64,000 bases of DNA from assembly GCA_947474455.1 (NCBI GenBank), contig CANJIL010000008.1, positions 1 through 64,000 on the forward strand, given 5' to 3'. Positions 5,459 to 10,753 of this stretch are shown here, piece after piece. Origin of the DNA: Hyphomonadaceae bacterium. GTDB taxonomy: Bacteria > Pseudomonadota > Alphaproteobacteria > Caulobacterales > Hyphomonadaceae. The notes under the pieces were generated by a model. The model worked only from the letters and a program-made list of their open reading frames with translations. It was not told the origin of the DNA and searched no databases. Each line of letters opens with the position of its first letter. The stretch's first letter is position 1. The translations under genes were made by a program, and so were the position numbers.

Positions 5459-6943
5459 TCAGAACAGGCTGCCCTGATCGCCGCCCGTCGTCCGCCGTCG
5501 AATACGCGGCCTTTGCGCGTCGGTCGACGCCGCCGTCGCCAGCGGAGCAGGCGGCTTCGGTCCACCAGAACCACCGCCAGCCGTCACCCCAACCTCGCCG
5601 TCCGCAAACCGCAGTTTGAGCGCATCGTTCTCCGCAACAGCGCCTGCCGACCGGACCAGCCCGCCATCGCCCCGCGTCACTAGCGCAAACCCCCGCGCCA
5701 GCACCCGCTGGTACGACACGGAATCCAGCACCCGCGTCTGCTCCCGCAACGCATCGCGAAGTCGCTTCATCCGCCGCCCGAGCGCCGGCTGCAGACGCCC
5801 CGCCAGCCGCCACACCTCGGCTCGCTTCGATCCAATCTCCCGCCGCAACGCCATCGGCCTCAACCCGCCGCCCACTTGATCGAACCGCGCCCGCTTCCGC
5901 GCCACCATCCGCGACAGCGACCCGCCAAACCGCTGCGAAGCCGTATCAAGCCTCTGCCGCGGCCCCTGCAGCAGCACATCCAGCCGCGGCATTCGTCCCG
6001 CCGCCGATTTCAGCTCCAGCCGCGCCCTGTCCGTCTGCCGCGTCAGGCACTTGGCCATCCGCCCGCCCAGGCTCGCCACCGCTGCAATCAGCTCCGCTCT
6101 CACCGGCAGCGCCATTTCCGCGGCGGCCGTCGGCGTCGGCGCGCGCACGTCGGATGCAAGATCGATAAGCGTAGTATCCGTCTCGTGTCCCACAGCGGAG
6201 ATCAGAGGTATCTCGCTGTCAGCTACCGCCCGCACCACGCGCTCCTCGTTGAATGGCCACAGGTCCTCGATCGACCCGCCGCCCCGCGCCACGATGATCA
6301 CATCCGGCCGCGGGATCGCCCCGCCGAGCTTCAGCGCATTGAAGCCGCGTATCCCCGCCTCCACTTCCGCCGCCGCCTTCTCCCCCTGCACCAGAGCTGG
6401 CCAGATCAACACATGCACCGGAAACCGGTCGCTCACACGATGGAGAATATCCCGGATCACCGCCCCCGTCGGCGACGTCACCACGCCGATCACGGCCGGA
6501 AGATATGGAAGCGGCTTCTTCCGCTCAGCTGCGAAAAGCCCCTCCGCCGCGAGCTTTATCTTCCGCTGCTCAAGCAGCTGCATGAGCGCGCCAAGCCCCG
6601 CCGGTCGCATCCTGTCCGCGATCAGCTGGTAGTTCGACCGCCCCGGATAGGTTGACAGCCGCCCCTCGGCCACCACCTCCAGCCCCTCCTCGGGCTTGAA
6701 CGGCAACCGTCCGGCATTGCCCTTCCACATCACCGTGTTGAGCGTCGCGCCAGCATCCTTTACATCGAAATACAAGTGTCCCGACTTCGCGAACACCACA
6801 CGCCCCAGTTCTCCGCGCACGCGCACGAACGCGTAGGCGTCCTCCACTGTTTTCTTCAGCGCATTCGCCAGCTCGGAGACCGTCTGCTCCGGCATGTTGT
6901 CGCCATGTGGCGGCGGGGTCTGCGACTCGATGAACTTATCCAT
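5459..6943 (-). CDS. xseA: Exodeoxyribonuclease VII large subunit
   Basis: About 494 residues from ATG 6943. An N-terminal OB-fold (SELANALKKTVEDAY, VRVRGELGRVV, GHLYFDVKD) is followed by the catalytic region with GVVTSPTGAVIRDI, VARGGGSIEDLWPFN and SAVGHETDTTLID. A long helical region and a C-terminal segment with RGFALVT complete the protein. XseA joins several XseB copies to degrade single-stranded DNA into oligonucleotides in mismatch repair and recombination; xseB is not in this window. In-frame starts also occur at 6991 (GTG), 6964 and 6895. I chose 6943 because GGAGG lies upstream, though 14 bases away, so the start is uncertain by up to 48 bases. The C-terminus is rich in Gly and Pro. 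Confidence 0.93.
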   Translation of the reverse strand: MDKFIESQTPPPHGDNMPEQTVSELANALKKTVEDAYAFVRVRGELGRVVFAKSGHLYFDVKDAGATLNTVMWKGNAGRLPFKPEEGLEVVAEGRLSTYPGRSNYQLIADRMRPAGLGALMQLLEQRKIKLAAEGLFAAERKKPLPYLPAVIGVVTSPTGAVIRDILHRVSDRFPVHVLIWPALVQGEKAAAEVEAGIRGFNALKLGGAIPRPDVIIVARGGGSIEDLWPFNEERVVRAVADSEIPLISAVGHETDTTLIDLASDVRAPTPTAAAEMALPVRAELIAAVASLGGRMAKCLTRQTDRARLELKSAAGRMPRLDVLLQGPRQRLDTASQRFGGSLSRMVARKRARFDQVGGGLRPMALRREIGSKRAEVWRLAGRLQPALGRRMKRLRDALREQTRVLDSVSYQRVLARGFALVTRGDGGLVRSAGAVAENDALKLRFADGEVGVTAGGGSGGPKPPAPLATAASTDAQRPRIRRRTTGGDQGSLF

Positions 6944-7009
6944 GCGGGGAGTATAGTCCTCCATGAACGCCAAGCCACCGCCGCGGATCACGGCGCGACT
7001 CGAGAGGTG

Positions 7010-7668
7010 CTAGCGTTTGACCCACACCGCCGGACCGAGCAGAGACGGCAACAACCGCTCGGGCGGTCTGTGTACAATGGAATCATGGCAACCATGCGCC
7101 TCGCACTCGGCTCGCGTTTGCTTCTCGAGCCTCGGGGCGGCTGCCGTGACGCCGAGATGATCGGGATTTGCGGAATCGTCCGCGATCAAAAGCCCCTTTG
7201 GCGACAGCAGAGGCCATGCCGCGTGCAGATCAGCTTACGCGAGGCCTTAGCGATGATTACCGCCGATGACGATCGCCGGGAGGACCTCGCGGCAATTCTT
7301 CAGCTAGTCCACCGAAGTCGCGCGTACCGCCGCGCCGCCAGCCGCGACAATGCGGGCCTTTGCCGGTTCGTAAGCGCTCTCCGCGACCAATTTCTTCCCC
7401 TTTCAGTACGCTTTGGAGTTCTGATCAGTATCATCGCCGATTTGCGGATCGACGCCGGGATAGCGCGCCATCCTTCCGGCAGGTCTCGTCAGCAGAGTTT
7501 CGGCGAGCAGCGTCTGAAAAGCGCCTATCTTGAGTACGGAGAGCAGCATGCCAGGGTGATGTTGTTCGATCACATCGCCATATCCTTTCAGGCGATCACG
7601 CCAGTTGAGAACACCGAAGCGTATGCTTCCTGTTGAAGGACAAACGACGAAAGTGCTGGAGCGTTCAT
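7010..7668 (-). pseudogene. Decayed SAM-dependent methyltransferase (Methyltransf_24 type)
   Basis: A single minus-strand frame from about 7600 down to a TAG at 7010-7012 reads like a class I methyltransferase but is cut by four stops: TGA 7403-7405, TAG 7304-7306, TAA 7247-7249 and TAA 7235-7237. Between the stops the text is well conserved: a glycine-loop relic (VLKIGAFQTLLAETLL), SAYEPAKARIVAAGG, REVLPA, GNHR and AAWPLLSPKGLLIADDS, ending HRPPERLLPSLLGPAVWV. The expected acidic IDGNHRY has become IGGNHR-stop. No frameshift is needed across these stops. The 5' end probably starts at ATG 7668 (MNAPALSSFVLQQEAY) and needs one shift near 7610. It lies upstream of xseA on the same strand. Confidence 0.72.
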
Positions 7669-7997
7669 GGAGCGCTGGAGTGTAACAATCCGCGTTAGCT
7701 TGGTCGGACAAGTCTTCAGTGTGCTATGGACAGAAGGGTTGCCATGGGCGCGGTCTTTCGCCGGAATCGGTAGACCGAGGCGTCTCCACCTGACGTAGCG
7801 GAAGCCCCCCCCCAGCGCACCGACATTCACGTAGCGACACGTTAGCGCATCGGCAGAGGGCCTAGGTCAGCTTGCCAACGAAGTTTCGCCGCTGAGCGCG
7901 TCTATCCTTCGCATTTGCCGCATTCCCAGGGAGAAAACATCATCGCCACAGTCCTCGGGAATAGACTTGGCTGCACGAAATTGCGTGCGCAACCATC
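7669..7997. other. Gap with no recognisable gene
   Basis: Between the 5' end of the methyltransferase fossil and the putative TonB-receptor promoter I find no frame with family resemblance on either strand. It contains a run of nine C residues near 7807. The region is less GC-rich than the genes around it and is probably fossil DNA that can no longer be read. Confidence 0.45.
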
Positions 7998-8025
7998 TTG
8001 GCCGTGATCAGCGATCTGCCATAGA
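7998..8025 (+). promoter_or_regulatory. Possible promoter of the TonB-receptor gene
   Basis: TTGGCC at 7998-8003 and CATAGA at 8020-8025 are 16 bases apart and lie 34 bases before the GTG start at 8060. If this is the promoter, transcription begins near 8032, which excludes the longer TTG start at 7967. This is a sequence-only match with weak boxes. Confidence 0.3.
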
Positions 8026-8059
8026 GTCCTGGAATTCCTTTGCAGGGGCGGACACTAGA

Positions 8060-10234
8060 GTGACATCGGCTAAAGCGGCTATTGCCGGTGCGCGCGCCAG
8101 TGGGTGCGTCAACTTGTCTGGAATTAGCGCGAGCCTGCGCCTGACCTTGGCGTTCGCGGGCGCCGGCTTCGGGGCCATAGTCTGCGCCGGATCGGCTTAC
8201 GCGCAGGACACCCTAGCCGCGCCCGCTGTCGAGAATGTTAGTGTTACGGAGAACGTCTACAGCCCGGATTTCTACGCCCGCTTTGCCCCCCGGTCGGCCC
8301 TGGACATGGTTCAGCAGACCCCCGGCTTCACGATCACGGAGGTCGTCGCCGGCAAGCGCGGACTCGGTCAGGGCGGCGCGAACGTGCTGATCAATTCGCA
8401 GCGGATGTCATCCAAGGCAACCAGCGCTGCAGATGCATTGAACCGGATCTCAGCTGACCGCGTTGTTCGCATCGAAGTCGTCGACGGGGCGCGTCTGAAT
8501 ATCCCGGGGCTGTCTGGCTACGTCGTCAACATCATCACGCGCGGCGGCGCCATGACCGGTCGCTGGGAATGGGCGCCTGAATTCCGCGAAGACCGGAAGC
8601 CGAAGTTCGAACGTGGCAAGGCATTCGTGTCGGGCGACATCGCAGGCTGGAACTACAGCGCCTCGTTGTTGAGCGACCAGTATGGCGACGTTTATGCAGG
8701 TACAGAGTACGCGTACAACCAGAACGTCGAACTCTTCGATGTACGGGTCGAAGACGACGAAAACTGGAACACGAAGCGCGCGGCCTCGCTCGATCTGTCG
8801 AACGAGACACTGTCGGGAATGACCACCAACCTTCACATGCTTGCATCCAGCGACGACAAGAGGCAGCGCGAGTTTTCCGATCGCACCGGGATTAACCTTC
8901 CAGATCGCTTCCGGGTCTTCCAGAAGATGGACGATGGCGACAAGATCGAACTAGGTGGCGACTTCGAATTCGGGCTTGGACCGGGCCGTCTGAAGCTTAT
9001 CGGCCTGCACCAGACGCTCAAGAACGGGCTTTACGAATCCGCCGTGACAGACTTCCTCGGCGCTCGTCCGAAGGTCGGATCCCACGTGATCACAGCGAAG
9101 GAAAGCGGCGAGGCAATTCTGCGAGGCGAATATTCGCTGCAGGTCGACAACACCGACTGGCAGGCCTCGCTCGAAGGCGCTTTCAACTTTCTCGACTCGG
9201 CCGCCGAGCTATCTACGATTTCGAATGGAAACTACGTCGTCGTGCCGGTTGCTGGGTCGACCAGCCGCGTCGAGGAACGGCGGGCAGAAGCAACGCTGGT
9301 TCATGGCCGTCCCCTGACTGACCAGCTCAGCGTGCAAGCATCGCTGGGCGTCGAATATTCGGAGCTGTCGCAAACCAGCGCGAATGGCCTGGTACGCGAG
9401 TTCGTCCGACCGAAGGGCTTTGTCGCCTTGTCCTACAATCCGGGCACGCAGTGGGACGCAACCTTCCGCGTCGAGCGTGCAGTCGGCCAGCTTGATTTCG
9501 TCAACTTTGTAACGGTTATCGGACTCAACAGCGATCAAGGTCAGACCACCGTCGGAAACCCCAACATCGTGCCCGAGCAGAGCTGGGACACCGAGCTGAT
9601 CGTCAACACCCAGATGGCCTGGTCAGGCCCTGTGAAGTTCCGCCTATTCTATCGCGCCATCGAGGACGTGAATGACCAGATCCTGGTCTCGCGCACCGTA
9701 AATCCCGATGGCTCGATCGATATTCTTGAATCAGAAGGAAACCTCGACAGCGCCGTGGACTACGGCATCGAGCTGTCCGGCACATACCCCTTGGGCGGGC
9801 TTCTCCCTGGCGCAAAGATCGACTGGCTGTATCTCCTCAGCGAGCAACGCGTCGAGGATCCGGTCGTTCCTAACCTGACGCGCATGTTCAACCGGCTCGA
9901 CTTCTCCAAGATCGACGTCAAATTCCGCCAGGACGTACCCGGCACGCCATGGGCATGGGGCGCCGAGTTTTTCCTCGCCCGCGGCTCCGGCCAGTGGCGT
10001 CTAGACCAGCGCACACACCGCATCTCGCGTCCCGGCAATCTCGACATGTACATCCAGAACAAGGATTTCTACGGCCTGGACGTGAATGTGCGGCTCATGA
10101 ACCTCCTCGACGAGGAGGATGACATCAGCCGTCTGGTCTGGAATGGCACGCGCGCGGATATGCTGGAGCTGCAGGAAAACCGCCTGCGCTATAGCGGCCG
10201 CGCCATCAAGCTTACTGTCTCCGGAAGCTTCTGA
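8060..10234 (+). CDS. TonB-dependent outer-membrane receptor
   Basis: About 724 residues. A signal peptide with a long polar lead ends at AGSAYAQ. The plug domain follows (SALDMVQQTPGFTI, QGGANVLINSQRMS, DRVVRIEVVDGA, GLSGYVVNIITRGG), then a large beta-barrel with alternating aromatic strands and a terminal Phe (KLTVSGSF), as needed for BAM-assisted insertion. The barrel contains WDTELIVNTQMAW and DWLYLLSEQRVEDP strands typical of receptors annotated only as outer-membrane beta-barrel in alphaproteobacteria. The ligand is unknown: no transporter, regulator or hydrolase lies next to it. I prefer GTG 8060 (AGGGGCGG upstream, better signal-peptide length) over TTG 7967. Confidence 0.88.
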   Translation: MTSAKAAIAGARASGCVNLSGISASLRLTLAFAGAGFGAIVCAGSAYAQDTLAAPAVENVSVTENVYSPDFYARFAPRSALDMVQQTPGFTITEVVAGKRGLGQGGANVLINSQRMSSKATSAADALNRISADRVVRIEVVDGARLNIPGLSGYVVNIITRGGAMTGRWEWAPEFREDRKPKFERGKAFVSGDIAGWNYSASLLSDQYGDVYAGTEYAYNQNVELFDVRVEDDENWNTKRAASLDLSNETLSGMTTNLHMLASSDDKRQREFSDRTGINLPDRFRVFQKMDDGDKIELGGDFEFGLGPGRLKLIGLHQTLKNGLYESAVTDFLGARPKVGSHVITAKESGEAILRGEYSLQVDNTDWQASLEGAFNFLDSAAELSTISNGNYVVVPVAGSTSRVEERRAEATLVHGRPLTDQLSVQASLGVEYSELSQTSANGLVREFVRPKGFVALSYNPGTQWDATFRVERAVGQLDFVNFVTVIGLNSDQGQTTVGNPNIVPEQSWDTELIVNTQMAWSGPVKFRLFYRAIEDVNDQILVSRTVNPDGSIDILESEGNLDSAVDYGIELSGTYPLGGLLPGAKIDWLYLLSEQRVEDPVVPNLTRMFNRLDFSKIDVKFRQDVPGTPWAWGAEFFLARGSGQWRLDQRTHRISRPGNLDMYIQNKDFYGLDVNVRLMNLLDEEDDISRLVWNGTRADMLELQENRLRYSGRAIKLTVSGSF

Positions 10235-10257
10235 GGTCAGGCCTAGGGCCTGATCTC
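10233..10257. terminator. Inverted repeat spanning both stop codons of convergent genes
   Basis: GAGGTCAGGCC (10233-10243) and GGCCTGATCTC (10247-10257) form an 11-bp stem with one G-T pair and a 3-base loop. It overlaps the TGA of the receptor gene and the TAG of the convergent small gene. No T-run follows on either strand, so it may act as a weak bidirectional terminator or RNA 3'-end stabiliser. Confidence 0.4.
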
Positions 10258-10671
10258 AAGCTCCACCTCGCGCACAACCTCCTCCGCTTTCGTCCCGCGC
10301 GACACGCGCACCAGCACGAAGCGTCCGGAGAAGCCGTAGTCGAAGGCCCATTCGCCATCGATCATCGTGAAATATGGATCGACCGTCCCTGTGTAGACGA
10401 TCGGATCGCGATGAACGCCGGGCGCCGGATGGTACAGCTTGGTGAACTTCACGCTGAGCTCCCCCCGCGCGCCCGAGATATCCGCCGACAACTCGATAAG
10501 CCCCGGATGCGCGAACGTGTTCGGCTCCAGCGTGGTGCCTGACAGCGTGCCCAGTGAATCAATGATGTGCGCCGAGAACGGCACTGGCGTCCCCGCGCCG
10601 TACCAGTACTCGCCCGACCACAATCCGGTCAGGTCGCTGTCGCGCGAATAAGCGTTGCCCCCGCCCGTCAT
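10243..10671 (-). CDS. Conserved-looking protein of unknown function
   Basis: 142 residues from ATG 10671, which has an AAGG about 8 bases upstream. No signal peptide or membrane segment is seen. The sequence opens with DLTGLWSGEYWYG and has PVPFSAHIIDS, ISGARGELSVKFTKLYH, a YTGTVD strand and FSGRFVLVRVSR. This is a pattern of about eight beta strands that resembles small lipocalin- or avidin-like barrels. I do not recognise the family with confidence. It is divergent from purD (82 bases between starts) and convergent with the TonB-receptor gene. The longer frame up to 10722 would run into the purD promoter region and has no ribosome site. Confidence 0.68.
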   Translation of the reverse strand: MTGGGNAYSRDSDLTGLWSGEYWYGAGTPVPFSAHIIDSLGTLSGTTLEPNTFAHPGLIELSADISGARGELSVKFTKLYHPAPGVHRDPIVYTGTVDPYFTMIDGEWAFDYGFSGRFVLVRVSRGTKAEEVVREVELEIRP

Positions 10672-10753
10672 GCAAAAACCTTGTCTTCTGCGCCCCGGCG
10701 GTACTAATCCGGCGCCTAGCATAACCAGCTATCAACCCGGCCGGACAATCTAC

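Follow-up and report, generated by a model that had tools for sequence, protein, structure and literature searches.

The stretch of DNA to the left of a TonB-dependent-receptor-like gene is very probably a lineage-specific pseudogene of a class I SAM-dependent methyltransferase of the Methyltransf_24 kind, which was probably acquired horizontally and decayed mainly by substitutions. We consider this the best reading because the stretch has true homology to methyltransferases, contains all three kinds of stop codon, has lost conserved residues, and lies at a site that is empty in the readable relatives. These same findings bear out the original prediction, which described the stretch as a methyltransferase fossil. 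All coordinates refer to the window, i.e. the whole stretch of 64,000 nucleotides that was analysed. The frame of the pseudogene and its stops, with codons counted from 7711, are as follows.

7711 down to 7010, minus strand: frame of the methyltransferase pseudogene, with four internal stops and then a terminal TAG
7403 to 7405, minus strand: internal stop TGA, codon 103
7304 to 7306, minus strand: internal stop TAG, codon 136
7247 to 7249, minus strand: internal stop TAA, codon 155, directly after the residues GNHR
7235 to 7237, minus strand: internal stop TAA, codon 159
7010 to 7012, minus strand: terminal TAG, in the same frame as the four internal stops
7666 to 7668, minus strand: ATG at the 5' end given by the original prediction, in a frame that differs from the body and not established as the old start

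Reading of the frame reproduced the four predicted internal stops of three types (TGA, TAG, TAA and TAA) in a single minus-strand frame. It had also been claimed that there is no shift across these stops. This holds for the body of the pseudogene, where one frame runs through all four stops, but not for the 5' end at 7668. Because the ATG at 7668 sits in another frame, the claim concerns the body only, and a start at this position would need one shift. The codon-usage score over positions 7541–7660 was about 0.02 in the frame of this ATG and −0.16 in the body frame, a difference too small to decide between them. Judged from the sequence, frameshifts may have occurred near either end of the pseudogene, neither end being backed by the profile described below.

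For the homology tests, the pseudogene was translated with its stops masked as X and compared with Methyltransf_24, as the original prediction had suggested, and similarity was found. The Pfam search of the masked reading matched Methyltransf_24 (PF13578) over residues 120–179 (22.1 bits, E = 2.8e-4) as the sole family at E up to 1, and a search of the whole genome with PF13578 matched the same region (23.6 bits, E = 2.1e-4). Both scores are significant by E-value yet lie below the curated cut-off of the family (26.3 bits), as decay would lead one to expect. When the six frames of 6957–7955 were compared with Pfam, a methyltransferase appeared in the pseudogene frame only; one frame matched Rotamase_3 (E = 0.35) and four frames matched nothing. 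The regions backed by these and the following comparisons are:

7175 to 7354, minus strand: Pfam Methyltransf_24 match, positions 44–104 of the family
7127 to 7564, minus strand: part of the pseudogene backed by a pairwise match, residues 50–195 (146 codons)

The best relative outside the own genome was locus L007 in a genome of the same class (G155), with 31% identity over residues 50–195 (E = 1.1e-7 for G155); in this class-level search, 12 of 385 genomes, the own genome included, matched at E up to 0.01. L007 was used as a lead to 27 plasmid records, and its family is annotated as 'class I SAM-dependent methyltransferase' in plasmids of Azospirillum, Nostoc, Niveispirillum and Rhizobium. 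A profile of nine intact methyltransferases found via L007, with L007 itself left out, matched the pseudogene with 22.9 bits (E = 2.3e-6), whereas the best of 1000 shuffles reached 3.6 bits. Among the matches listed, there was none to the remaining two minus frames, to the plus frame or to the sequence in reverse. Against this profile, the first 135 residues alone scored no better than their own shuffles, and the last approximately 35 residues were without support. The predicted coherence from the glycine loop to the C-terminus thus stands for residues 50–195 in the pairwise comparison, but support for it ends at residue 197 or so, beyond which most family-conserved columns are gone. A second profile, made from 21 fragments of the genus's own Methyltransf_24 loci (two of them trimmed to 51 and 61 residues by a frame rule), gave the pseudogene 1.7 bits, and six shuffles scored higher. 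This failure counts against kinship with the genus's own Methyltransf_24 members. AlphaFold prediction of the read-through and one relative yielded a mean pLDDT of 37, and provided no evidence in either direction.

The sub-cut-off Pfam score, the N-terminal 135 residues and the 21-fragment profile all speak against the pseudogene reading. The first of these would also fit a chance match of a non-coding stretch, as would the observation that multi-stop frames elsewhere reach E-values of 0.006–0.009 by chance with the same query. However, the E-value of the best relative and the large distance between the profile score and the 1000 shuffles are hard to reconcile with chance, and the codon-position pattern of GC content is found in the same frame as the methyltransferase reading. 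We therefore regard a chance match as extremely improbable. Over positions 7010–7618, GC by codon position was 0.67/0.47/0.66, compared with 0.60–0.71/0.41–0.51/0.74–0.82 in seven intact genes of the window. Such a pattern points to a coding frame whose third position has eroded, or whose ancestor had a lower third-position GC.

Eighteen alignment columns are identical in at least nine of ten intact members of the family. The pseudogene keeps 10 of these 18 columns, and the lost ones include E61, G67 and D150. In the SAM loop (E-x-G-x-x-x-G), E61 has been replaced by K and G67 by T, while G63 is kept. Furthermore, the acidic residue D150 before GNH has become G, in agreement with the original observation that the acidic residue before GNHR had changed. 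The reading hence lacks two marks of a working class I methyltransferase, namely a complete SAM-binding loop and an acidic residue ahead of GxH. With the SAM-loop E, its second G and the D ahead of GNH gone, the encoded protein would be crippled even if no stop had arisen. A pseudogene is a frame with homology to a gene that inactivating changes have broken, and the four stops and the lost conserved residues are such changes.

These results also bear on two alternatives in which the gene would be functional. In the first, the gene is kept alive by stop-codon recoding or readthrough, which would agree with one coherent frame spanning all four stops. A recoded gene, however, would have one stop reassigned consistently. 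As the original prediction argued, the presence of all three stop types (TGA, TAG and TAA) inside the frame makes recoding unlikely. In addition, the standard code gives intact frames for the neighbours xseA and purD; readthrough, in turn, would yield a crippled enzyme. The probability of this alternative is accordingly minimal. In the second, the gene is intact and its stops arose as errors of assembly or sequencing, a reading against which the loss of conserved residues and the low third-position GC both argue. Moreover, four substitutions without an indel are not the usual pattern of sequencing or assembly errors, and we consider this explanation highly improbable.

An intact copy elsewhere in the own genome, which the original prediction proposed to look for, was searched for and not found. 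No protein relatives of the pseudogene were detected in 104 other genomes of the family, and no related DNA in 40 relatives save a 25-base match in G020. Viral contigs, phages, solved structures and NCBIfam contained no intact relatives, and neither did plasmids, including in a search at E up to 1. Profiles based on two-sequence alignments picked up 165 stretches in genome contigs, none of which was confirmed, and a second search of this kind picked up 370 stretches, with one confirmed (AP024683.1, Geminicoccaceae KatS3mg117). Searches at the order and phylum level matched 22 and 8 of 398 genomes, respectively, the own genome included, and E-values outside the own genome ranged only from 3.2e-4 to 0.01. 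Some of these matches were taken as background, with stops inside and a position across other open frames (L111, L014 and L016 were examined). No close intact relative was found in the genomes, plasmids, phages and viral contigs searched, and therefore substitutions, in-frame indels and the order of events are not directly readable.

The pseudogene lies in DNA that is special to the lineage of the window, between two genes that occur next to each other in its sister genome G012.

5459 to 6991, minus strand: xseA, exonuclease VII large subunit, the intact left neighbour (Pfam E = 2.9e-101)
6957 to 7819, no strand: extra DNA of about 0.86 kb without counterpart in the sister G012 (alignment up to 6956, similarity again from 7820)
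7967 to 10234, plus strand: TonB-dependent-receptor-like gene, the right neighbour, with weak Plug and OMP_b-brl_3 matches below their cut-offs and with relatives in the genus; its true start is perhaps downstream of 7967

The alignment with G012 agrees up to 6956, and the intergenic DNA at 7820–8028 scores 65, compared with at most 39 in 200 shuffles. The interval 6957–7780 scores 25 against G012, which is no better than shuffles. The gene xseA is present in all 15 genomes of the genus, and 14 stretches around xseA or the receptor were compared, from 13 of the 14 relatives; G010 was left out because its xseA match is split over two contigs. Twelve of the 14 relatives were readable at the site, with G003 unreadable because its contigs end there, and the pseudogene was absent in all 12. 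In G012 and G008, the gene next to xseA is the TonB-receptor-like one, and extra DNA of such length is missing. In ten other relatives the receptor is missing and purD comes next, with a relative of the frame at 10243–10722 before purD in eight of them. Judging by this distribution, gain in the lineage of the window is the simplest reading, and loss in the other lineages is a possibility.

The interval between xseA and purD (window 6957–10240; L083–L092) varies across the genus. It holds the TonB-receptor-like gene in G000, G012 and G008, an open frame of 240 residues (BON-like by eye) in G001 and G006, and a different frame of 191 residues in G005, and it is almost empty in the others. The wide gaps beside xseA in G001, G006 and G005 showed no significant match to the pseudogene. 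Since these gaps hold other, unrelated open frames, the site appears to take up DNA repeatedly, and the interval behaves like an insertion-prone site. The frame at 10243–10722 (minus strand, 159 residues) beside purD has no Pfam match, and its start overlaps the long purD frame; relatives occur at the same site in 11 of the 14 genus stretches examined, and it is a conserved protein without an assigned function. An inverted repeat of 12 bases, perfect in sequence (CTCCATGAACGC), is located at 6959–6970 and 7661–7672; one arm lies close to the left end of the extra DNA, and the other covers the ATG at 7668. A mobile element based on this repeat was considered and is unproven: a repeat as long was present in 10 of 300 shuffles and in 3 of 90 window stretches, and a second copy of 6957–7300 was not found in the genome. 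The Rfam search of 6900–8200 returned no family.

The opposite strand of the pseudogene is open as well.

6776 to 7636, plus strand: open frame opposite the pseudogene, sharing its register exactly and also that of xseA, and taken to be a shadow frame; no Pfam match

This frame runs antisense through the start of xseA and through the pseudogene. It might represent a case of overprinting, in which the plus frame has become a new gene, either at full length or with a later start within the extra DNA. Selection on this gene would keep the stretch free of frameshifts and of TTA, CTA and TCA, and the minus-strand stops would do no harm, being read as leucine or serine in the plus frame. In line with this, the plus frame shares the register of the pseudogene and stays open over the 193 codons examined, in which the methyltransferase frame is without TTA, CTA and TCA, and the supported span has no frameshift. 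The lack of these three codons is somewhat low under neutrality (P of about 0.24 to 0.01 given at least four stops, for K of 0.1 to 0.3), and the joint neutral probability of at least four stops and none of these codons is 0.002–0.022 (K of 0.05–0.4). However, TTA, CTA and TCA are also missing from 27 of 84 windows of 193 codons taken from intact genes, so that openness can be inherited. The plus frame belongs to no Pfam family and has one borderline match only (E = 0.0036, 48 residues) in the 104 other genomes of the family, no sigma-70-like promoter or terminator was found in 6900–8100, and the frame also passes antisense through the start of xseA. Overprinting is therefore very unlikely. 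The frame is long because xseA and the pseudogene happen to share their register, and the decayed methyltransferase gene is the reading that we retain.

We used a neutral-decay model for GC-rich genes to evaluate how unusual decay without a shift would be; the mutation biases in this model, and the figure of 85% for indels that shift the frame, are our own assumptions. About four stops in 193 codons would be reached at roughly 0.3–0.5 substitutions per site, and with a log-uniform prior the modelled median was 0.25–0.40 substitutions per site (5–95% range of about 0.09–0.9). In the portion of PMC4978911 used here, the indel/substitution ratio in mutation accumulation was 0.30/2.92 = 0.10 in Agrobacterium tumefaciens and 0.37/2.00 = 0.185 in E. 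coli. For a modelled gene of 240 codons with four stops, the probability that at least 146 codons remain shift-free was 0.21, 0.039, 0.0055 and 0.001 at ratios of 0.02, 0.05, 0.10 and 0.185, respectively. Four stops hence predict frameshifts, and the value of 0.0055 at a ratio of 0.10 argues against neutral decay. The original prediction called loss by substitutions alone unusual; this was right in direction, but the effect is moderate (0.1–21%, depending on the indel rate) and applies to the recognisable stretch only. Indels concentrate in repeats, and readers notice frames that stay readable; for these reasons the pattern is not inexplicable. According to the model, four stops without a shift would be uncommon, not extraordinary.

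In the sequence of events that we propose, a methyltransferase gene of the Methyltransf_24 kind probably arrived by horizontal transfer. Together with some flanking DNA, it would have been inserted between xseA and the TonB-receptor-like gene after the split from the sister G012. Selection would then have been lost, followed by presumably neutral decay, mainly through substitutions. This decay would have produced four nonsense changes, the loss of SAM-loop and active-site residues, and a lower third-position GC. A functional enzyme is predicted to be absent.

Of five annotated plasmid loci examined for the nearest intact family, three adjoin glycosyltransferase or exopolysaccharide genes and two have no neighbour within the stretch that was taken, while four further loci are without annotation there. 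Because of these three loci, our guess is that the ancestor perhaps methylated a sugar or polysaccharide. For the annotation, the result is mostly a clean one: what fills the gap to the left of the TonB-receptor-like gene is a decayed gene, with no unusual coding system. On a small scale, it also illustrates how a gene of a GC-rich bacterium can decay through several hits without a frame shift; where sequence is poor in repeats, indels may be rarer than one would expect from genome-wide ratios in mutation accumulation.

Compared with known systems, the pseudogene shares with the class I SAM-dependent methyltransferases of Methyltransf_24 the motif order LxIGxF, GxD, (D)GxH, DL, PxGLL and DD, and its second half matches the profile. 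It differs from PF13578 in its four internal stops, its replaced SAM-loop E, second G and D before GxH, and its score below the cut-off. The L007 family is its best pairwise relative, including the NPxxLGVTAA stretch of L007. In contrast to the pseudogene, whose end past residue 197 or so is unmatched, members of this family are intact, with 262–312 residues in the open frames read. With respect to the mode of decay, the pseudogene resembles those of Salmonella, in which nonsense mutation is a common route of inactivation (131 of 346 single-mutation cases in the portion of PMC2916853 used here); from this fraction, we calculated that four nonsense hits without an indel would have a probability of about 2% if hits were independent. 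Conversely, more than one inactivating mutation was present in only 32 of 378 Salmonella pseudogenes in the same portion of that survey (PMC2916853), whereas the pseudogene described here has four stops.
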